41,176 bases of DNA from a virus. Position numbers and translations under genes: made by a program. The notes under the pieces were generated by a model. That model was not told where the DNA came from, did not search any database, and saw nothing but the letters and a program-made list of their open reading frames with translations. This document shows, in pieces, positions 19,198 through 30,667 of the stretch. The stretch lies in the IMG/VR virus record IMGVR_UViG_3300032116_000480, positions 1 to 41,176 of that record. The stretch is one strand, 5' to 3'. Position 1 is the first letter of the stretch. Each line of letters begins with the position of its first letter.

Positions 19198-19598
19198 AGC
19201 TACACCCCGTAGATGTAGGGCACATTCACAGGCTTTGGCCTGAAGTTGAGGGGTTCGTTGCTGCTGCGCTAGAACATGCTGACGGTGACTACACGCTAGA
19301 GTCAGCCAAAACTCTGCTCGCTACTGGACAGTGGATGTTGATTGTTTTTGTAGATGAGCAGAAAATTGCAGGTGCGGCAACGGTGCATCTGTTTAATCGC
19401 CCGCATGATCGGGTTGCCTTCATAACTGCCATTGGCGGTGGACTCATCAGCAACAAAGATACGTTTGAGCAGTTCAAGCAGATTCTGGCTTCGTATGGAG
19501 CCACATGTATCGAAGGTGCAGCCCGTGAGTCGATTGCCCGTCTGTGGCGGCGTTACGGATTCCAAGAGAAATACAGGATCGTGGGGATCAAAATATGA
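19194..19598 (+). CDS. GNAT-like acetyltransferase-fold protein (134 aa)
   Basis: ATGA overlap with the upstream gene. The pattern (ALEHADGDYTLESAKTLLAT, GQWMLIVFVDEQKIAGAATV, HDRVAFITAIGGGLI, then RLWRRYGFQEKYRIVGIKI) matches small phage proteins with a minimal GNAT fold. The terminal yGF...y....I strand is characteristic. A clear acetyl-CoA pyrophosphate loop (Q/RxxGxG/A) is not obvious, so catalytic activity is uncertain. It is always sandwiched between ejection-type genes in the genomes I recall, suggesting a virion or assembly role. Confidence 0.7.
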   Translation: MKLHPVDVGHIHRLWPEVEGFVAAALEHADGDYTLESAKTLLATGQWMLIVFVDEQKIAGAATVHLFNRPHDRVAFITAIGGGLISNKDTFEQFKQILASYGATCIEGAARESIARLWRRYGFQEKYRIVGIKI

Positions 19599-22500
19599 GC
19601 TACTCCCGCAAACAACTTGAAGCTCTTGGCGAGCCGTTTGGCGAATCTGCCACTGCGCTTAAGCCCGGTGGGCGTATCTATGGTGGCGGAGGGGGTGGAG
19701 GCGGTCCTTCTACCTCAACTCAAATCGCTGAGCTTCCTGAGTGGGCGCGTCCGTATGCGCAGAAGGCTCTTGGCTTTGGCGAGTCCTTGGCGTTTTCTCC
19801 GTATCAGCGGTACAGCGGGGATCGTATCGCTGGCTTCTCTCCCATGCAAGTTGAAGCCCAACGAACAATTGGGCAGATGGGGCCTGCTGGTCAGATTGGG
19901 GAGGCTTCTGCTCTAGCGAGAGGTATTGGGTCTGCCGCTCAAGGCACTTCATATGATCCGGGTACGTTTACCGGTGGGGTGTTTAATACGGGTGCTGCAA
20001 ACCAATACATGTCCCCGTTCATGGAGGCTGCGATGGAACCGCAGCTTCGGGAGGCACAACGTACTTCCGCTATTCAAGCTACTCAGCAGGCTGGGCAGGC
20101 GGTTCAGTCAGGTGCGTTTGGTGGTGGTCGAGCTGCCATTCTTGAAGCCGAGCGGCAGCGTAACCTAGGCACTCAGCTTGGAGACATCCGAGCCCGTGGG
20201 TACCAGACTGCCTTTGAGCAAGCTCAAAGCCAATTCAACCAAGACATGCAGCGTCGGATGCAGGCCCAGCAGTTGGGTGAGCAGTCCAGACAGTTTGGTG
20301 CGGGTCTTGGGCTCCAAGGTCTTGGTATCGGTCTCAACGCCGCTGCTCAGCTTGGACAACTTGGGCAGCTGCAGTTTGGGCAACAAAAAGACGTTCTTGG
20401 TATGCAGAGGGACGTAGGGAGAGAACAACAAGAGCTGCGGCAAAGAGGTCTGACTCAGGACTACCAAGACTTTTTGGACGAACGAAACGCTCCGTACAAG
20501 AACCTTGGATTCTTCTCCGACCTTATTCGTGGTCTTCCGCTTGGGCAACAATCTACTAGGCAGCTGTACGAAGCCCCGCCTTCCGCACTGCAGACTCTTG
20601 GGTCTATCGGGGCGGGTGCGTATGGCATGAAGCAACTCGGCATGTTCGCCGAGGGTGGCTCGGTTACGGATGATCGGTTCGTTGAGAGCGCCCTAGACAA
20701 GATGTCTGACGAACAGCTTGCTCAAGCCGAGCGGGTTGCAATGATGCGTGGTGACAGAGAACGCCTTGCCATGATCGCCGAAGAGAAGGCCATGCGAGCG
20801 TCAGAGCGCCGAGGTCTTGCCGCTGGCTTTAACCAGATGCCTCAGCAAACGCAACAACAGATGCTCCAAGCCGCTCGGGGAGGAATCGTTGCGTTTAGTG
20901 ATGGTGGCTCAGCTCTTGACGCTGCACGGAAACGCCGCCAAGCAGCGCAAGAAAAGTTGTATACGTTTGGTTCACGCCAACAACGTGCTAACCCTGAAGG
21001 GTTCCGTGCCGCACAGGAAGAGCTTCGTGCAGCCGAGGCTGCACTACAAGCTGCTCAAAAAGCCTACGCCTCTGAAGTATCTGCCGCTGGGTTGGATCGC
21101 CCGGTGACAAGTCGTGAAGATATTGGGGCTGCTAGTCGCTTTCAGAGTTCTGCTGCCGCTCCTGCTGCCGCTCCTGCTGCCGCTCCTGCTGCCGCTCCTG
21201 CTGCTAGCTCCGATGTTCAAAGTTTTGATGGAGACCCATATCGTCCTGAAACTCCATTGACTTCTATTCAAGACCCTTTCGCTCCCGCTGCTGGTGAAGC
21301 TGCTCCCGCTGCTGGTGAAGCTCCTGCTGCCGCTGCCGCTGATGGTGAAGCTCCTGCCGCCGCTCCCGTTAGGTCGATTGCTGACCTAATTGGAGACGCC
21401 CAAGCTGTTGTACGCGGCATAGGCGAAAGAGCAGCTCCATCCTTTAGCTACGCCGAACCTAGGTCTTATCTTGAGAGTGCGGCGGCTATGAGGCCGGAGC
21501 AGTTTGATCCAGCTAAGTTTGAAACTGAAGCAGGACAATTTAGAGAAGCTGCTGCTAGATTTCGTGGCGGTCTTAGTGAGTTGGAACCGTACGAAAAACG
21601 GTTGAAAGAACAACGTGAAGGTTTGGCTGGTCGGCGGCAAGAGAACAAAGGGTTAATTGCTTTGGCTGCGGCTCAAGCTCTTTCCAAGGGTTCTGGGCTT
21701 CGTCGGGGTATTGGTGAGATGTTTGGTGCCATCGGTACTACTGCGGCTTCTCTTAACAAAGAGCTGCGTGAATCGGAGCGACTTATTGACCAATCTGAAT
21801 TTGCTCTTGCTCAAGCCAAACAAGCCCGTAAAGATGGCAACGATACGCTGGCTATGCAGTGGGCTGAGAAAGCTCGGGCTGATAGAAACGCCGCTATTGC
21901 TTTGGATCGTGACGTACAACTTAGAGCAGCCGCCGCTGCTGACGCAGAAAGGCGCGAAGAGCGTAAAGCGGATGAGGACTACAGAAAAACTCAGATTACG
22001 GTTGCAGGCGGTATTGCACAACAGATCATTGCTGCTGACTCGCGTATAACCGCTGCGGAAGCTAGGAATTTGGGTGCTCCTATGGTGCAGCTGGCTGAAA
22101 CGCTTGTGCCGGGGATCATGAGAGCTAACCCCGGATTGTCTAGGGAAGAGGCTTTGTCTAGAGCATCTGAACGTATTCTTGAAGCTCAAAACATGGGCTC
22201 AGGAGGCGCTCAGAACATCAATGCTTTCTTTGAGGATTTTAAAGAACGCCGCAATTCTGGTGACCCAGCACTCAAAGGTAAGAGTGACGCCGCTCTGCGT
22301 GTTATGGCTATTAAGGAAAATGCAAATGTTCAGGGCAGAGTTGGCGGTGATGTTACTACAGAGACTAGGTTGCAAAACGCGTTTGCTAGGGACCCTAAGC
22401 TAAAAGAAATATCGGAAGCACGAGCAATGCTTCGCTTGAGACCAGAAAGCCCTGAAGTCAGAGCCAAAATAGAAGCGCTAGACAAAGAAGAAGAAACTCG

Positions 22501-22672
22501 CAAAGAGCGTATCCGTAGGGAGGTAACTGGAGCTGGAGCTGGAGCTGGTGTTACCATGACTAAAGCCGATATTCAGACTACTCTAGCTAGATTAAGAACT
22601 ACTAACCCAAACATAACGGAAGCGGATGTAATAAAAAGAGCGCGAGATTCGGGATACACCATTGTAGACTAG
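19595..22672 (+). CDS. Large internal virion protein candidate, 1025 aa
   Basis: ATG at 19595 overlaps the previous TGA. Codons upstream in the same frame lie within the GNAT-like gene. The N-terminus has a Gly8 run, then a region (AELPEWARPYAQKALGFGES, NQYMSPFMEAAMEPQLREAQ) typical of phage internal proteins. Gln-rich helices follow, then MFAEGGSVTDDRFVESALDK and AARGGIVAFSDGG. A low-complexity Ala/Pro linker (about residues 515-590) precedes a charged helical C-terminus (residues 650-1025). It is probably an ejected core protein. No lytic transglycosylase motif is seen. The linker DNA contains 12-bp tandem repeats. Confidence 0.65.
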   Translation: MSYSRKQLEALGEPFGESATALKPGGRIYGGGGGGGGPSTSTQIAELPEWARPYAQKALGFGESLAFSPYQRYSGDRIAGFSPMQVEAQRTIGQMGPAGQIGEASALARGIGSAAQGTSYDPGTFTGGVFNTGAANQYMSPFMEAAMEPQLREAQRTSAIQATQQAGQAVQSGAFGGGRAAILEAERQRNLGTQLGDIRARGYQTAFEQAQSQFNQDMQRRMQAQQLGEQSRQFGAGLGLQGLGIGLNAAAQLGQLGQLQFGQQKDVLGMQRDVGREQQELRQRGLTQDYQDFLDERNAPYKNLGFFSDLIRGLPLGQQSTRQLYEAPPSALQTLGSIGAGAYGMKQLGMFAEGGSVTDDRFVESALDKMSDEQLAQAERVAMMRGDRERLAMIAEEKAMRASERRGLAAGFNQMPQQTQQQMLQAARGGIVAFSDGGSALDAARKRRQAAQEKLYTFGSRQQRANPEGFRAAQEELRAAEAALQAAQKAYASEVSAAGLDRPVTSREDIGAASRFQSSAAAPAAAPAAAPAAAPAASSDVQSFDGDPYRPETPLTSIQDPFAPAAGEAAPAAGEAPAAAAADGEAPAAAPVRSIADLIGDAQAVVRGIGERAAPSFSYAEPRSYLESAAAMRPEQFDPAKFETEAGQFREAAARFRGGLSELEPYEKRLKEQREGLAGRRQENKGLIALAAAQALSKGSGLRRGIGEMFGAIGTTAASLNKELRESERLIDQSEFALAQAKQARKDGNDTLAMQWAEKARADRNAAIALDRDVQLRAAAAADAERREERKADEDYRKTQITVAGGIAQQIIAADSRITAAEARNLGAPMVQLAETLVPGIMRANPGLSREEALSRASERILEAQNMGSGGAQNINAFFEDFKERRNSGDPALKGKSDAALRVMAIKENANVQGRVGGDVTTETRLQNAFARDPKLKEISEARAMLRLRPESPEVRAKIEALDKEEETRKERIRREVTGAGAGAGVTMTKADIQTTLARLRTTNPNITEADVIKRARDSGYTIVD
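21152..21204 (+). repeat. 12-bp tandem repeat encoding Ala-Ala-Pro linker
   Basis: Four consecutive exact copies of GCTGCCGCTCCT (21152-21199) plus a partial fifth, encoding an (A-A-A-P) linker in the 1025-aa protein. A related, less regular A-P-A-A-G-E repeat follows at about 21283-21366. Confidence 0.95.
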
Positions 22673-22681
22673 GAGCCCTAA

Positions 22682-25600
22682 ATGGCTGGTCGTGATTTTA
22701 GTCAAGAGCTGTTTGGGGCTAACTCTGGCTTTTCGGGTGGGCGCGATTTTAGCCAAGAGCTGTTTGGGACTGCTGCTCAACCTGAACCCAGACCTGAAGA
22801 CCAAAGTATCTTCCGCTCGGTAGCCGACCCGTTCCTAAAGGCAGGGGCGGGGGTTGTAATGGGCGTTCGCATGATTGCGGACGCTTTCGGTGCTGGTAGC
22901 GAAACCTCTCAAACACTCAAAGGCGCAGAGGATTGGATTGCTGCGCTGTACAGCGCTCAGTCCCAACGTGATAGCAAAAAAGTTGCGCAAATCATTGACG
23001 CTGCAAAAGACAAAGGCGTCTGGGATCAAGTCAAAGCTGGCTTTAGCGCGTTTCTTGAAGCACCGGTTGACATAGTTGCTCAGGGTCTTGGCACGGCTGC
23101 GCCTGCCATCCTTGCTTCGCTAGCAACTACGGTGGTAGGCGCTCCTGCTGCGGTCACTACTGCAGCTGGTTTAGGTATTGGCGCTCTCATGGGCGCGGGT
23201 ACTGTCAAAGGCGCTATCTACGACGCGGTCAAGGAGGAACTCGCCAAGACCAGCATGCCCACGGATGAGATCGAAAAACGAGCCCAACTAGCGCAAGAGT
23301 ACGGTGGGGCGAACCTCGATCAGATTCTTATGGGTAGCGCTATTGGCGGTCTGTCGGCTCGGACTGGTTTGGAGTCTTCAATTGCCAAAGCCGCCGCTGC
23401 CCGGATCGCAGGTAAAACTGCAGTTGCTGAAGCTGCGGAAGCGGCCACTAGACAACAGGTAGCAAAAGAAACCGCAGAAGCTGCTGCCCGTGGACCGCTT
23501 CTTCAGGGGGCTAGAACTGCCGCTGTTGAATCCGGCACTGAGTTCCTTCAAGGTGGGCAAGAACAGCTTGCTCGAAACTTGGCGCTGCAACGCGAAGGGT
23601 TTGACGTACCTACGTCCCGAGGGGTTGTGGCTCAAGGTACGTTGGAAGCTCTTGCTGGCGCTCCTCTGGGTGGAGCGTTTGGAGCTCGTGAGGCTGTAGT
23701 CGCTCGGCAAGAACAAGAGCGTCTTGACCAGCTTCGTGCTCTTGTAAACCCCCCTCCTCCCGATCCGGCCCTTAATGCTGATGAACAAACGCAGCAACTA
23801 GCTACGTGGTACGAACAGTCGGTCACTCCAGAACTTGCGGGTGTGATGGCTAGGGAGATGACGGCACTTCGTAGTGCTGCCGAACAACAAGCAGCGGCAG
23901 CTGGGCTTACGCTTCCTCCCCTTACTCAAGCAGCCGAAGGCACAGATCAAGTCATCAGTGTAGACCCGGAACGGGTGCGCATGCTGGAGGATGCTCTACT
24001 TGCTAACGGTCAGAAACCTGCAATCGCTCGTCTGAGGGCTATTCTTTTAGCGACCAAAGAAGCGTATGACGATTGGTTTGCAGAGCAAGATGCAGAGCAA
24101 GGGGGAGAAGTAAAAGAAGCGACAGCCCCTAAGCCCAACCCGTTACGGGTTGAAGAACTTATCGATGCGCTTGTCGAAGCTGGTGTCCCTCTTGAGGAGG
24201 CTAAAAAACTAGCGCTAACCAAAGCTACTCAAGAGGCCGCGCAAGGAGTAACAAATGTTAGAGGACCTGTCACCCCAGCAGGTGGAGAAGGCGTTCGAGT
24301 GGCTGGCGAGCCCCCTGCAGGAGCCCCCACCGGAGGGGCTGGAGTCTCTGAAGCAGCAGGAGTGGTTTCTCCTGCAACGGATGCTGGATTGCCTGATGGA
24401 AGAAAAGAGACTGCACCCGGTACAGTAGAAACAGTTACCCCAACCCCTGACCTAACCGGAGCCCCCAGTGGCACTCAAACCCCTCAAACCGTCGAAGCAA
24501 AAGAAAAAAGACCAGCGGCAGCTGCCAAGACTGCTGCAGCCAAACCCGCCGCAACCGCAAAACCCGAAAAACCGCTAGGTGTACTCGCGCTCGCCGACAA
24601 GCTCGCCAATGATGCGTTTACTAACTTAGACCAGTACACGGGCTCAGACCAGTATGAGAAGTTAGAGAACGCTGTAAGCGAGCTTCGGTTTGCTCTACAA
24701 ACAGAGTTAGAGAATCGAGGGGCCAAAACAGGTGCCTATGCCCCTACGTTAGCTCGGTTCAATAAAAAAGTAGCTGAACTGCGCAGAGATGCGGTTTCTC
24801 GTAATCCTACCCTCGATTCAGAAGGTATGGGTAGGAGCATGGCTGATGCGGCTTTTGACCAACGCAAAGAGTATGGTGGGTTAGAGGAAGCAATTGATAG
24901 CTACCGAGACAATTTGATAGATACGCTAAATGAGTACAAAGCGGGAGCTTTTGCAAATGACGTAGCACTACGAGCGTTTGGCGCTCGGGTAGAAGAACTA
25001 CGTAAGGGAGAAAAACCTGCGCCTAAGAAACGCGGTCGGCCTGCACGGTCTTCAGCGGAATCAGCTTTAGAGTTTAAGAAACTCTTATTGCGCGGTCGCG
25101 GTAGGCCAGCACTGTCTCCAGAAGAACGCGCAGCCAGAGCGAAGGCTCGTACGGGTGTCCGTGCGCAAGCGAATCGTGATGCTCGCCGACTGCAACAGGC
25201 TGCATTAGATTTAACTACCAAAGACAAAGACCGCCGTAGGGACGCGCTCTTCACTCTCCTTGATATCGTCAAGACCTCACAGTCTACGCCTCGGCTAAAT
25301 CAAGCTAGGAACATGCTGAAGGCAAACACCACTGAGGCTGAACGCGCAGAGCTTGAGAAAGGGTACGGGGATTGGAAAGACAAACAGGCTGAGATTGCTG
25401 CGTTTGAGGCAGCTCAAAGAGAGCAACAGAAAGCTACTCGGCTGACTCCTGAAGAGAAAAAACAGAATCAAGAGGAAGCGGAAAGAGCTAGAGATAAGCG
25501 TAGAGTAGAGCAGGAACAAAACAGGCTAGATGCTCTGGAGGCAAAAGCCTCGCGTAACTGGCGCAGTCAAACGGTCGATGTCGCAGCTGCTGCAGAGCGC

Positions 25601-28600
25601 AGGGCTGTACAAACTCTAAAAATTAAACGTCAACTTGAAGACAAGATCAACAAGCAAAAACAGAAGATTGCTGATCTCGGGAAGAGACTGGCTGCGTTCA
25701 GGCAGAATAAACCTGTCGATGAAGCTAAGCTACTGCTCAAAGAGAAAGAGTACAAGCTGGAGCAGCTGAAGCTCAAGGTCTTTGAAGAGAAGCCCATTGA
25801 TTGGGATGCCGACTGGGAGCGGGGCACCAATGTCCGCTCGTTGGAGGGTGCTGCACAAGAGATCCGTGTTCTGCAGCCTAAGAGAGCGGCCAAGAAGAGC
25901 ATGACTTTTGAACAGCAGCTTGCTGCAGCTCGGAACATTGAGTCAAACCTTAAAGGGCGTGACGCTGAAGAGGATGATGGCGCTGTTGTTGAGCAAGTTG
26001 CCGGTGCTCGTGGTAGAAGAGCCACTGAAGACGAAGCTGGTACAAACGATATCGCCATAGCTAATCTGTTTGATACGCAGGTTGAAGGAGAGGTCGAAGC
26101 TGAGATCGAGGCTGTGGTTGAACCCAAGGCAACGAAGAAGCGCAAGCCCAAAAGCGAAAAACTTAACCCCGTATCTACCGAAATGTATCATGGGTCTCCT
26201 AATACAGAGATCGCTGAGTTTAGTGGGTTAACATTTTTTACCTCCAACAAAGACGTTGCAACGCAATACGCAAAAAAACAGGTAGCTTTTGCGGGTAAAA
26301 CCGCAACTGGTCCGGGGCGGGTATATCAAGTCACTGTTAACACAAAAAACACACTGGACCTCAGAAAAGATACACACCGTGCTGCTTATAACAAAGCACG
26401 AACTGAGTGGAATAAGACACGCGAGCCTGATGAACAGCTACCTCCACTTACTAGCGAAGGTTTTCTAATATCAAAAACGGGATTGCCTAGTTATGGGCAA
26501 ATTGCTTCTGTTCTAAAAGCACTACCGCAGTTTGATTCTGCTTTTGTAGATGAAGGTACCCAAGGAACATCTCTTGTTGTGGTAGACGGGTCCGCTGCTA
26601 AAGTCAAACCAGCAGAAGAACCCAAGCAGCTCACCCCTCAAGAGCAGTACGCGTCTCTTGTTGAGAACCTCCCCGGTGCACCTGCGTTCGATACGCTGAG
26701 CGAAGGAGCTCAGAAACAAATCACCGATCTCGCCGAGCGGAATCAGCTGAACCTTGCTGCGATCAATAGGATTGCGGCAGATCAAGCACCCAAGTTCTCT
26801 CAAACTCCAAACGTAGACAAAGCAGACGTTCGCTTTAGCAAGTTCACAACTGCTGGACAAGCTGCAGCTCACGTTGCTCGTACGGGCAACGCCTTTCAAC
26901 GCGCTCTTGCTCGTCGGCTTAGTGGCCTCAAGATTCTTCAGAACACGAAGTTTGTAGTCCTTGAACCGGGCGACCCGCCCCCGAGAGAACTTAAGGGCGA
27001 TCCGGGTTGGGGTACAGCTCGTGGTGTGTTCATACCAAGCACAAACACTATCTATGTCAGAAGTGCGGCTGACCCTTTGCAGGGTGCAAACAACGTCACC
27101 GTATTGCATGAAGTACTGCATGCTGCATTACAGGCCAAGATTGCTGCAGGTAGGCAAAGACTGAAGGCTTATCGAGATGCCATCCTGCGCGGCCAGCCGG
27201 TAAGCGGGCTTGCTACTGAAGTTGAAAGTCTGTTCATGGACTTGGCTCGTATCGCTCGGCGAGCTGAAACGCACTTCAGAGCTTTGGAAGATATGCCGGA
27301 AGACCTGATGTTGACGGTTGCTGGTACGCAGAACGAGCGCACTGGTAAGTACGACATTTTCAGCGATCTTGATGAGTTTCTTTCCTATGGTATGTCAGAC
27401 CCTGTCTTTCAAGACTTCCTGAAGACGGTGCCAATGGAGGGGACCACAGGATTCTCTAGATTTGTGAAGGCAATCCTGCGTTTCTTGGGGATGGCTCCCA
27501 ACGACCAGTCGGCTCTTTCTCGACTCATTGACGCCACAGACAAACTCATCGCTGTTCCCGGCAAGTTTGTGCGCTCTCAGCAAGCGGCTTTTGCTCAAGC
27601 TGCTGCGGCTCCAACGCCGCCGACTCCCCCTGCCGCTAACGTAGCTGCCAAAGCAAAAGCTAAAAAGCAGAAAGTAGACGCCACGCTTCAGAAAGTTTTG
27701 CGTTCTCACTCATCTAGCCCTACGTTCATGGACGGAGTGCGGCAGCTCATCAACGAGCGCAAGAGCGATTTGCTTTTGGACGTACTAACTTCTAAGTTTG
27801 CGTCCTTCAAAGGCTCAGCCCTGCGGCAACTTTTGCCGACGTTGCAAACCGAAACCTTAGTGGACTGGGCTAGCCGACTGGGTCTGAAGAACACTGAAGT
27901 AGCTTGGGGTGCGACTAAGAGCATGCAAGCTATGCAGACTCAAATGCTTGCCGAAGCCGCTGATATAAGCGAACGGCAAGTGAAGCTGCAGCTTAAAAAC
28001 CCAGAAATGTACAAGCTGCTGGGGGTAGTGCAAGACTACAGCACGTTGCGTAGGGTTGATCCAACTAGGGTAAACCTGAATGAGCGTGACGCCAAAGGCA
28101 AACTCAAGTACGAAACTTTGAAGACGTACTGGGGCAAACTTAGTTTGGAAGCAAAGCAGCTGTACGAAGACACCCGTGACTACTACGTCAAGAACTACAA
28201 CCTGCACTACGATTTGCTAAACGGTTGGATCACTGCGTTTGATCTGCCCGGTGATGTTTCGGACGCGTCTACCCCCAAAGGCAATTTGATTGCGTCGATC
28301 AGAAAGATGCAGGAGACCGGACGAGCTATCGATCCTTACTTCCCGCTCATGCGCTACGGCAACTTTTGGGTGCGGATTGGCAAAGGAAAATCCGGAAAGA
28401 TGTACATGTTCGAGTCGCAGTCCGATAAAGAACTCTTCATCAAGACTTGGTTCCGCGAACAGCAGGCAGCTAACCCCAATGCGGATCTGAACAAGTTTAG
28501 AGAAGACGATGTTCTGAGTGATGGCAACGACATCGAAAGTGCCCGTAAAGACATGACTAAGTACTACGACGTACTTAAGAACATGTTTGACACTATCGAC

Positions 28601-30667
28601 AGTATGAAGTCCACTGGCACTACAGATGACTTCGGCAACAAACGCCCTGAGTTGGATAAGGTCAACAAAGAACGGCTGAAAGACAGCATCTATCAGATGA
28701 TCTTGCACACCTTGCCGGATGCTAGTTTCCGCAAACAGTTCATTCATCGGCAAGGCAAAGAGGGTTTCTCTGGCGATCTCGCTCGCAACTTTATGACCCT
28801 CAGCACTGCCATGTCCAACCAACTGTCTCGGCTTAAGTATGGGCCGGTAATCACTAACGCCATGCAAGCTGCAGAGGCAGAGCTAAAGGGTAATCCAGAA
28901 GCTGCACGTTTGCGTGAGTTTGTTACTGAAATGAAGATGCGTACGGGCAGGGAGATGAACCCTGCTCCTGAGAATGCTCTTGGGCATCGGGCGGCTAACT
29001 TTGCCAATCAAACCGCGTTCCTCTACATGATGACGAACGTAAAGACGGCTGTTGCTCAGTTGCTTGCCATACCTACGTTCACCGCTCCGGTGCTTGCGTC
29101 TAGGCACGGGACAGCGCGTACAGCTAAGGCTTTGGGTTCGTTTGCTGCTATCTGGAACAGCGTCGGCGTACGTAGGGAGAATGCGGACGGATCTACTTCG
29201 TGGGTTGCGCCTACGATTGCTCAATCTAAGCGCGTGAAGCTAAACCCTGAAGAACGCCAAGCGGTTCAGTACATGATTGATCGAGGCTTGACTGAAAACA
29301 CACTTGCGTATGATTTGGGTAACCGCAAGAAGATGCCCACTGAAGTGCAAAACTCAACTTTCCGACGCGGGGCTAGGGCGGCTATTAACGCCATGACTGC
29401 GTTGTTCCATCACAGCGAACGGCTGATCCGTGAAGTGACGTTCATGGCTTCGTTCAGGTTAAACCGACAGAAGTATCCAGACGAGTCTTTTGAGCAAATT
29501 GCACAACGTGCGGAGAAAGAAACTTACGATGCGCTGAGCAACTTTGCCTCTTCTAACCGTCCTCGGGGTATCGGTGCTACTGCTGAGCGAGAAGTTTTGC
29601 TGGATGCGCACAAGCCATTGGGCCGAGCCATTCTGCAATTTAAGATGTTCCCAGCCTTCGTGACTACCTACTTCGTGCGCAATCTGTATCGCATGCTGGG
29701 TAAGGGCTACACGAAAGAAGAGCGTAAAGAAGCAGCCGTGCAGTTCTTTGGAACTATTTTGATGTCGTTCACGCTTGCTGGTGTGATGGGCATCCCCGGT
29801 TTCTCGTTTGCTCTCGGCGTGTTGTCAGGCTTGCGCAAGGTAATGATGGATGATGACGAGGACGATCCGCTTGAGAAACGGGATCTGATGCTTTGGTTCC
29901 GCAACATCTGGATACCGCAGACGTTTGGAAACATCACGATTGCAGGCAAGCCGTTGTCAGATGTTGTGGATCGTGGAGTCATTGCTTCGCTCACTGGGTT
30001 TGACTTTACCGGCAGCATGTCGCTGAACAACATGTGGTTCCCTGAACTGAAGGAAACCGCAACTGCTCAGGCTGCGATGCAGGACTATTTGATCTCGTTG
30101 ATGGGTCCGTTTGCATCACTCATCAGCAAGCAACTTCCCAAAGCAATTGACTTCTTTAACCAAGGAAAGCTGCTTGAAGGTATGGAGCAGTTGCTTCCCG
30201 CTATCGCTAGGTCACCGGTCACTGCGTATCGCTATGCTACGGAAGGTGCGTCTACTACGTGGGGTGCAGAGATCAAACCCGCCAACGAGTTTACGATTGG
30301 GCAGATCATCGGCCAAAGCGCGGGGTTCAGCACCGAAGGGCTTGTGGCTCGACGAGAAGATTTGTTTAGGGCCAATGCTTTGCGGATTCAAATTCAAAAT
30401 CAGAAGCGCAAGCTTATGGACCGACTTGATCTGGAGCTACGTGAAGATGGAAATGTGGATAAGGTGCTGGAAGACATCTTCAAGTACAACGCCAAAAATT
30501 GGTTCGACCCAATCCGACCTTCGGAAATTAAAAAGTCTTTGCGTACTCGCTTGGAGCGCCGAGTAACTGCAGAGCGTGGGCTTGCCGTTGAGAAGAAGTA
30601 CTACCCGCAGATGATGGAGCTCTTTGATGTGTCGGGTCGTAAGCTAGCAGCCGAAGCCGCCAAATAA
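22682..30667 (+). CDS. Giant polyvalent protein with ART-like, zincin-like and AT-hook elements (2661 aa)
   Basis: AGGAG precedes the ATG. The N-terminus repeats GRDFSQELFG twice, then a hydrophobic Ala/Gly-rich region (about residues 140-175). Low-complexity linkers surround residues 525-582. Two AT-hooks occur at 782-789 (KKRGRPAR; DNA minor-groove type) and 804-810. A Lys/Glu-rich coiled coil follows (about 880-1050). Residues 1168-1310 (MYHGSPNTEI, FFTSNKDVATQYAKKQVAF) look like a polyvalent ADP-ribosyltransferase domain. His1476-Glu-Val-Leu-His1480 is a zincin metallopeptidase motif. The C-terminus has hydrophobic stretches (about 2355-2385) and HKPLGRAILQFKMFPAFVTT, of the PLxRFG type. 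Such proteins are thought to be co-injected and to act on host targets. Activity is inferred. Confidence 0.75.
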   Translation: MAGRDFSQELFGANSGFSGGRDFSQELFGTAAQPEPRPEDQSIFRSVADPFLKAGAGVVMGVRMIADAFGAGSETSQTLKGAEDWIAALYSAQSQRDSKKVAQIIDAAKDKGVWDQVKAGFSAFLEAPVDIVAQGLGTAAPAILASLATTVVGAPAAVTTAAGLGIGALMGAGTVKGAIYDAVKEELAKTSMPTDEIEKRAQLAQEYGGANLDQILMGSAIGGLSARTGLESSIAKAAAARIAGKTAVAEAAEAATRQQVAKETAEAAARGPLLQGARTAAVESGTEFLQGGQEQLARNLALQREGFDVPTSRGVVAQGTLEALAGAPLGGAFGAREAVVARQEQERLDQLRALVNPPPPDPALNADEQTQQLATWYEQSVTPELAGVMAREMTALRSAAEQQAAAAGLTLPPLTQAAEGTDQVISVDPERVRMLEDALLANGQKPAIARLRAILLATKEAYDDWFAEQDAEQGGEVKEATAPKPNPLRVEELIDALVEAGVPLEEAKKLALTKATQEAAQGVTNVRGPVTPAGGEGVRVAGEPPAGAPTGGAGVSEAAGVVSPATDAGLPDGRKETAPGTVETVTPTPDLTGAPSGTQTPQTVEAKEKRPAAAAKTAAAKPAATAKPEKPLGVLALADKLANDAFTNLDQYTGSDQYEKLENAVSELRFALQTELENRGAKTGAYAPTLARFNKKVAELRRDAVSRNPTLDSEGMGRSMADAAFDQRKEYGGLEEAIDSYRDNLIDTLNEYKAGAFANDVALRAFGARVEELRKGEKPAPKKRGRPARSSAESALEFKKLLLRGRGRPALSPEERAARAKARTGVRAQANRDARRLQQAALDLTTKDKDRRRDALFTLLDIVKTSQSTPRLNQARNMLKANTTEAERAELEKGYGDWKDKQAEIAAFEAAQREQQKATRLTPEEKKQNQEEAERARDKRRVEQEQNRLDALEAKASRNWRSQTVDVAAAAERRAVQTLKIKRQLEDKINKQKQKIADLGKRLAAFRQNKPVDEAKLLLKEKEYKLEQLKLKVFEEKPIDWDADWERGTNVRSLEGAAQEIRVLQPKRAAKKSMTFEQQLAAARNIESNLKGRDAEEDDGAVVEQVAGARGRRATEDEAGTNDIAIANLFDTQVEGEVEAEIEAVVEPKATKKRKPKSEKLNPVSTEMYHGSPNTEIAEFSGLTFFTSNKDVATQYAKKQVAFAGKTATGPGRVYQVTVNTKNTLDLRKDTHRAAYNKARTEWNKTREPDEQLPPLTSEGFLISKTGLPSYGQIASVLKALPQFDSAFVDEGTQGTSLVVVDGSAAKVKPAEEPKQLTPQEQYASLVENLPGAPAFDTLSEGAQKQITDLAERNQLNLAAINRIAADQAPKFSQTPNVDKADVRFSKFTTAGQAAAHVARTGNAFQRALARRLSGLKILQNTKFVVLEPGDPPPRELKGDPGWGTARGVFIPSTNTIYVRSAADPLQGANNVTVLHEVLHAALQAKIAAGRQRLKAYRDAILRGQPVSGLATEVESLFMDLARIARRAETHFRALEDMPEDLMLTVAGTQNERTGKYDIFSDLDEFLSYGMSDPVFQDFLKTVPMEGTTGFSRFVKAILRFLGMAPNDQSALSRLIDATDKLIAVPGKFVRSQQAAFAQAAAAPTPPTPPAANVAAKAKAKKQKVDATLQKVLRSHSSSPTFMDGVRQLINERKSDLLLDVLTSKFASFKGSALRQLLPTLQTETLVDWASRLGLKNTEVAWGATKSMQAMQTQMLAEAADISERQVKLQLKNPEMYKLLGVVQDYSTLRRVDPTRVNLNERDAKGKLKYETLKTYWGKLSLEAKQLYEDTRDYYVKNYNLHYDLLNGWITAFDLPGDVSDASTPKGNLIASIRKMQETGRAIDPYFPLMRYGNFWVRIGKGKSGKMYMFESQSDKELFIKTWFREQQAANPNADLNKFREDDVLSDGNDIESARKDMTKYYDVLKNMFDTIDSMKSTGTTDDFGNKRPELDKVNKERLKDSIYQMILHTLPDASFRKQFIHRQGKEGFSGDLARNFMTLSTAMSNQLSRLKYGPVITNAMQAAEAELKGNPEAARLREFVTEMKMRTGREMNPAPENALGHRAANFANQTAFLYMMTNVKTAVAQLLAIPTFTAPVLASRHGTARTAKALGSFAAIWNSVGVRRENADGSTSWVAPTIAQSKRVKLNPEERQAVQYMIDRGLTENTLAYDLGNRKKMPTEVQNSTFRRGARAAINAMTALFHHSERLIREVTFMASFRLNRQKYPDESFEQIAQRAEKETYDALSNFASSNRPRGIGATAEREVLLDAHKPLGRAILQFKMFPAFVTTYFVRNLYRMLGKGYTKEERKEAAVQFFGTILMSFTLAGVMGIPGFSFALGVLSGLRKVMMDDDEDDPLEKRDLMLWFRNIWIPQTFGNITIAGKPLSDVVDRGVIASLTGFDFTGSMSLNNMWFPELKETATAQAAMQDYLISLMGPFASLISKQLPKAIDFFNQGKLLEGMEQLLPAIARSPVTAYRYATEGASTTWGAEIKPANEFTIGQIIGQSAGFSTEGLVARREDLFRANALRIQIQNQKRKLMDRLDLELREDGNVDKVLEDIFKYNAKNWFDPIRPSEIKKSLRTRLERRVTAERGLAVEKKYYPQMMELFDVSGRKLAAEAAK
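24243..24248 (+). promoter_or_regulatory. Shine-Dalgarno site of the embedded gene
   Basis: AAGGAG with 6-nt spacing to the alternate-frame ATG at 24255. It is stronger than the sites of many annotated genes in this window and decides the start of the embedded frame. Confidence 0.6.
24255..24428 (+). CDS. Embedded alternate-frame gene (57 aa) inside polyvalent gene
   Basis: ATG at 24255, TAG at 24426, in the +1 frame relative to the host gene. A strong Shine-Dalgarno AAGGAG (24243-24248) sits 6 nt before the ATG. The product starts MLEDLSPQQVEKAFEWLASP, continues with a proline turn (QEPPPEG) and a second helix (LKQQEWFLLQRMLDCLMEEK). It reads as a sensible acidic two-helix protein (11 Asp/Glu, 5 Lys/Arg), with 9 of 11 leucines as CTG. 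The host frame here gives low-complexity Gly/Ala/Pro/Val, as if read through. G+C at 24301-24360 is 44/60, above neighbours. It resembles, from memory, small independent proteins in other aquatic phages. Function unknown. Confidence 0.6.
   Translation: MLEDLSPQQVEKAFEWLASPLQEPPPEGLESLKQQEWFLLQRMLDCLMEEKRLHPVQ

Follow-up and report, generated by a model that had tools for sequence, protein, structure and literature searches.

Fully nested overlapping genes are known from phages: gene E lies within D of phiX174, and Rz1 lies within Rz of lambda. Such genes have rarely been proven in tailed phages because gene callers suppress them. Viral overlapping genes have been reviewed (PMC8227390). Polyvalent proteins, which include DarB of phage P1, are thought to be packaged and injected, and no nested gene in another frame is mentioned in the searched passages on them (PMC5512222).

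The viral DNA analyzed here, referred to as the window, is 41,176 nucleotides long (IMG/VR record IMGVR_UViG_3300032116_000480). It contains two small open reading frames, ORF1 and ORF2, within a polyvalent gene referred to as the host gene (Table 1). Like E and Rz1, ORF1 has the form of an entire small gene that is read in a frame different from that of the longer gene and brings its own ribosome-binding site and start codon. It differs from those systems in having a giant polyvalent gene as host, in the presence of two unrelated nested genes in this one host and in an outer frame that is relaxed over the overlap. Nesting as such is known in phages; no description of the ORF1/ORF2 pair, of the two families or of double nesting in polyvalent linkers was found in the open-licence papers searched.

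ORF1 is very probably a genuine protein-coding gene that is nested wholly in the +1 frame of this late gene, is initiated internally and is the main target of selection in the overlap, with ORF2 following it. This assignment rests on sequence comparison; translation is inferred, as there are no expression data. ORF1 would be translated by internal initiation at its own Shine-Dalgarno (SD)/ATG on the polyvalent mRNA, and the host protein would cross the overlap as a disordered linker that joins its N-terminal domain to the domains farther downstream. After ORF1, and likewise in +1, ORF2 would be another nested gene, shorter than ORF1 and encoding a putative basic peptide.

Table 1. Features of the host gene and its nested reading frames (positions in the window).
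Feature	Position	Strand	Description
Host polyvalent gene	22682..30667	+	2661 codons, DarB-like/PLxRFG C-terminal; closes late block
Host N-terminal domain	22682..24253	+	Residues 33-470 conserved in 60/105 hosts
ORF1 Shine-Dalgarno AAGGAG	24243..24248	+	6-nt spacer; motif and spacing kept across 130 distinct relatives
Host-frame segment overlapping ORF1	24254..24427	+	G/A/P/T/E-rich, predicted disordered linker; host pN/pS 1.73
Putative nested gene 1 (ORF1)	24255..24428	+	ATG, 57 codons and TAG, +1 frame of host; acidic product, predicted two-helix
ORF1 predicted helix 1 (residues 7-18)	24273..24308	+	AlphaFold2, mean pLDDT 87.4
ORF1 predicted helix 2 (residues 34-53)	24354..24413	+	AlphaFold2
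ORF2 Shine-Dalgarno core GGAG	24458..24461	+	6-nt spacer; SD core in 45/46 and 63/64 distinct relatives
Putative nested gene 2 (ORF2)	24468..24578	+	GTG start, 36 codons and stop, +1 frame of host; basic peptide MALKPLKPSKQKKKDQRQ...
Host C-terminal domain common to DarB-like/PLxRFG proteins	28292..30619	+	phrog_10089 and tblastn matches
Upstream gene, DNA ejection protein family	19544..22672	+	phrog_4287, 1.1e-15; late, virion-injection context

The host gene resembles polyvalent proteins, including P1 DarB (PMC5512222), in that it is giant, multidomain, located in the late block next to an ejection-protein gene and DarB-like in its C-terminal part, which matched phrog_10089 (DarB-like antirestriction, 6.6e-61). 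ART-PolyVal remained below the threshold in the window host and exceeded the cut-off in an ORF2 host from another locus (L322). By tblastn, the C-terminal part was ~22-26% identical to PLxRFG/DarB-like proteins of cultured podoviruses. The homologous C-terminal domain is present in the PLxRFG/DarB-like genes of Pavtok, LASTA, Parlo and Skulduggery, and the corresponding genes of F116 and H66 are the counterpart for the ORF2 host L341. The cultured podoviruses differ from the window in that the ORF1 profile found nothing in 12 whole records, and ORF2 occurred in cultured phages only as an isolated weak candidate in phage USP_18. Virion packaging and injection of the window host protein are inferred from its position only.

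Relatives of ORF1 and constancy of its nesting

The sequence-only reading had described an AAGGAG motif 6 nt ahead of the ATG at 24255, followed by 57 open codons, a CTG-skewed codon use and a G+C-rich interior over a featureless host frame. All of this holds exactly: the TAG ends at 24428, 9 of 11 leucines are CTG, 44 of 60 bases at 24301-24360 are G or C, and the host frame over the same bases is rich in Gly, Ala, Pro, Val, Thr and Glu. The same reading had named the absence of homologues, variation preserving the host frame alone and frequent stops among relatives as outcomes that would refute it, and none of the three occurred. IMG/VR contigs were searched with the 57-aa product, which yielded 16 full-length relatives, then with an ORF1 profile (best 80 of 174 relatives taken) and with a divergent ORF1 profile (best 80 of 251 taken). 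Full-length homologues were found at at least 209 viral loci, corresponding to 130 distinct DNA sequences. ORF1 occupied the same relative frame of a long host ORF at every locus inspected, and the host frame was open over ORF1 in all 130 distinct loci (median host length 2126 codons). The site lies 306-682 residues from the host N-terminal end and 1180-2518 residues before the C-terminal end. In L189, L198 and L178 the host ORF is broken by apparent frameshifts, which are probably assembly errors; in L189 and L198 the break sits between ORF1 and the C-terminal part, and the host frame over ORF1 is still open.

Most of these loci were ascertained through the small protein itself. The unbiased sample was collected with a query restricted to the conserved C-terminal region of the host protein, and here all 33 distinct loci that could be scored carried an intact ORF1 (30/30 hosts with a complete 5' end and 3/3 truncated hosts reaching the site). 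The 21 host-ascertained loci without ORF1 were truncated contigs. Collection scans could not be based on two host alignments (A4 and A6) or on the divergent ORF1 alignment (A7), whose sequences differ too much.

The open length alone carries little weight. Synonymous recoding with the host amino acids fixed left the window segment open in 12.7% of trials (P = 0.127), and alternate-frame open stretches of ≥40 codons are common, with ~23 per host gene (1923 in 82 hosts). These figures favor the explanation that ORF1 is a by-product, with a low-complexity host linker being conserved and its +1 frame open by chance. However, ORF1 was open in 82/82 representatives (<85% DNA identity to each other, mostly found through the small protein), compared to 16.6 expected under synonymous recoding. 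An SD with ATG or GTG at the homologous codon was found in 67 of these 82, compared to 5.5 expected. ORF1 was present in 80/81 hosts, whereas other alternate-frame ORFs of the same hosts were common to about a dozen hosts at most. In addition, the host frame is the less conserved one by both entropy and pN/pS, and the constraint is bounded by the SD and the stop codon (see below). The by-product explanation is already contradicted and has next to no chance of being correct. The other conserved alternate-frame ORFs in the hosts were set aside, as the conserved C-terminal domain or the third frame over ORF1 seems to account for them.

Selection in the overlap and initiation of ORF1

The sequence-only reading had proposed that the small gene is the constrained frame and that synonymous and nonsynonymous variation be compared per frame. 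Nucleotide entropy at positions 1, 2 and 3 of the ORF1-frame codons was 0.87, 0.55 and 1.11 bits (67 distinct sequences), as expected when the small frame is coding. In the same set, amino-acid entropy was 1.19 in the ORF1 frame compared to 1.86 in the host frame. Across 11 disjoint pairs with alignable flanks, host-frame pN/pS was 1.73 in the overlap, against 0.21 in the upstream and 0.30 in the downstream flank, and ORF1-frame pN/pS was 0.31. The value of 1.73 arises because host synonymous change drops in the overlap, with pS of 0.41, 0.076 and 0.41 upstream, within and downstream. In six-codon bins this dip extended from ~6 codons before the ORF1 start, where the ribosome-binding site lies, to the stop codon. 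The pN/pS values are plain counts; neither multiple hits nor the dependence of the two frames on each other has been corrected for. Despite this, the size and boundaries of the dip appear to leave little room for a reading other than ORF1 coding. Codon-position entropy, per-frame pN/pS and the bounded synonymous constraint agree that ORF1 is the constrained frame, so the variation does not favor the host frame alone. The host frame is not free either: recoding of ORF1 would keep it open in only ~7% of cases.

Instead of a peptide gene, the site could be a conserved DNA or RNA element with a recombination, packaging or regulatory function. Median identity among representatives was 0.60 for ORF1 and 0.28 for the C-terminal 500 residues of the host, and ORF1 similarity tracked host similarity weakly (Spearman 0.18 for the N-terminal and 0.14 for the C-terminal part), which suggests that modules recombine around the linker. 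A site in a linker between shuffling modules, with such weak correlations, is compatible with a recombination element. Against such an element, third codon positions of the ORF1 frame vary freely and second positions do not, lengths among relatives change by whole codons only, ORF1-frame pN/pS is low as given above, and the start moves together with its own SD. We regard an element of this type as very improbable. As a separate observation, the host linker at ~24254-24580 and its homologous sites appear to be a recombination junction of the polyvalent gene.

In the 130 distinct loci, with the start at each locus picked by the best SD, ORF1 begins with ATG (98), GTG (25), CTG (4) or TTG (3). 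An SD match of ≥4 bases was present in all but one of them, mostly at a spacing of 6-8 nt; the SD is weak or absent in a small number of loci, L240 and L016 among them. Loci without the usual start have an in-frame one upstream that is preceded by an SD of its own, as AAGGAG-GTG in L004, AGGAGG-ATG in L010 and AAGGAG-ATG in L097 and L109. Predicted RNA structure was weakest at the ORF1 start codon (69 representatives).

SD-like sequences can stimulate frameshifting, as in prfB, and ORF1 sits in the +1 frame, so programmed +1 frameshifting could instead fuse the host N-terminal domain to the ORF1 sequence. A frameshift would need neither the ATG or GTG kept in 123/130 loci nor its relocation with the SD. 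Furthermore, there is no host-frame stop at the site, and ORF2 has the same SD-start pattern at a variable distance. Frameshifting is therefore very unlikely, and the conserved and relocating SD-start pairs, together with the weak RNA structure at the start, favor internal initiation. The idea of a separately translated product, put forward in the sequence-only reading, has, like the other central claims of that reading, survived every comparative test applied; translation itself is inferred. Neither a cultured ORF1 carrier nor ribosome profiling or proteomics evidence was found in the records searched.

ORF2 and further nested frames

ORF2 was missed in the sequence-only reading and was found in a scan for further conserved alternate-frame ORFs, 40 bases downstream of ORF1. 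Its basic peptide (MALKPLKPSKQ...) is conserved in >100 loci and was always overprinted in the phage loci examined. In 46 distinct relatives, a TTG, GTG or ATG start and an SD core were each kept in 45. At this start the xTG is preserved, while the residue in the host frame can be Val, Ser, Leu, Asp or Gly. Over ORF2, pN/pS was 0.10 in its own frame and 3.12 in that of the host. When the collection was scanned with ORF2 only, 64 distinct loci were analyzed, with the start in 64/64, the SD in 63/64 and 63 counted as fully overprinted. Most of these loci also carry ORF1; four complete hosts have no recognizable ORF1. For both frames, comparison of natural relatives demonstrates, at the sequence level, coding in +1, purifying selection on the peptides, conserved initiation sites and constant nesting. 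The timing and stoichiometry of the nested products, like their actual translation, are inferred.

Outside the phage loci, ORF2 is nested in genome contigs of five betaproteobacterial bins, including Rhodoferax, Hydrogenophaga and Accumulibacter. In the Rhodoferax bin, the host carries domains typical of polyvalent proteins (InPase, helicase and methyltransferase), and one genome-contig ORF2 sits in a host ORF of only 444 codons. No match to ORF2 was obtained in phage records (tblastn, E up to 10) or in curated families. The weak candidate in the cultured Pseudomonas phage vB_PaeM_USP_18 (MASKPLKPSKQARNERKRLERQ..., 21.5 bits) was not counted, as the 83% identical phage 8P lacks it; it lies inside a polyvalent gene (L349 1493-1603, MASKPLKPSKQARNERKR...).

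In L311 and L322, two ORF2 hosts without recognizable ORF1, another SD-preceded nested ORF (MSAQIAQLEPQLAWAVSQG...) occupies the corresponding place, at locus coordinates 5574 and 7530, respectively. It has 67-68 codons, reads MSAxxAxLEP...ISLSEAWAFQDL... and lies 157-161 codons upstream of ORF2. Possibly, it is a replacement for ORF1 or a very divergent ORF1.

Nested products and their possible roles

The AlphaFold2 model of the ORF1 product, built with 82 homologues, contains two confident helices, as listed in Table 1. The product (MLEDLSPQQVEK...) has a median net charge of -5 and no hydrophobic N-terminus, and is predicted to be an acidic two-helix hairpin, as the sequence-only reading had supposed. 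The host segment over ORF1 (segment-model residues 81-137) was modeled with pLDDT ~43-58 and no secondary structure between helical flanks, which bears out the suggestion that the giant gene reads through ORF1 as a linker. Unlike lambda Rz1, ORF1 has no lipoprotein signal peptide, lipobox cysteine or membrane segment, and a nested lysis protein of the Rz1 type was rejected.

Searches of PHROGs, Pfam, NCBIfam, PADLOC and PDB with the ORF1 family returned only scattered weak matches. Neither phrog_5825 (best 0.027, only 14/82 members), FGAR-AT_N (best 0.0023, 3 members) nor PDC-M16B (best 0.0024, 3/82 members) was accepted as a homologue. Foldseek of the model against PDB gave nothing better than E 6.9, which is unsurprising for a protein of two helices. 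In phage records, tblastn with the ORF1 consensus (E up to 10) or the window product (E up to 1) gave no match, and ORF1 was absent from the genome contigs searched. Both nested ORFs are thus unmatched in phage records and curated families. The expectation that annotation overlooks ORF1 was borne out. All homologues found are nested, and no free-standing one was detected in phages, PHROGs, Pfam, NCBIfam or genome contigs; distant relatives below detection are not excluded. The proposal of a captured gene is thus unsupported, and birth of ORF1 by overprinting is at least as likely as capture.

Both ORFs lie in inter-domain linkers and their ribosome-binding sites are very well kept, as would be the case if their translation acted in cis, on the traffic of ribosomes or on how the giant protein folds during its synthesis, with the peptides secondary. 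The strong amino-acid-level selection (pN/pS 0.31 for ORF1 and 0.10 for ORF2) and the confident ORF1 fold argue against this role, which we consider improbable.

As the host gene ends the late block after an ejection-family gene, late expression of ORF1 and ORF2 is inferred. Their products may be small late partners of a virion-packaged polyvalent protein. For example, they might hold this protein or its DNA-binding parts in a soluble or inactive state before packaging, or they might aid its loading. Although the best guess, this is a doubtful proposal, an inference without direct evidence. An almost equal alternative, which remains possible, is that the nested genes are real and encode host-takeover or counter-defense proteins acting on bacterial targets. 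Small acidic phage proteins often inhibit host enzymes, and ORF1 persists even though the host middle domains cannot be aligned between carriers. Polyvalent genes are also conflict genes (PMC5512222). On the other hand, the position in a late virion-protein block predicts late expression, and no defense or counter-defense family was matched consistently, PDC-M16B being the case in point.

It is probable that, across a large lineage of environmental podoviruses, nested genes are stably housed in the disordered linkers of the giant polyvalent gene, with one mRNA stretch encoding three selected proteins, of which the nested ones are more conserved than the surrounding one. The three would be the giant protein, which is probably injected, a helical hairpin of acidic character and a basic peptide. 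Natural variation here provides textbook evidence for two nested genes in one host, the inner frames being more tightly constrained at the protein level than the outer one. Two protein families that match nothing in the databases are added, and linkers of polyvalent genes are shown to be able to code twice. With ORF2 also nested in the Rhodoferax, Hydrogenophaga and Accumulibacter bins, polyvalent genes may commonly hold hidden genes. These could be sought at scale by screening giant phage genes, in their alternate frames, for conserved SD-start pairs and host-frame synonymous suppression.

Among the loci, Limnohabitans phage DC33 (L345, PQ492659.1) is classed as Inoviridae despite a length of 39 kb, a polyvalent-like gene of 9.4 kb and late genes arranged much as in tailed phages, and this taxonomy line looks wrong.
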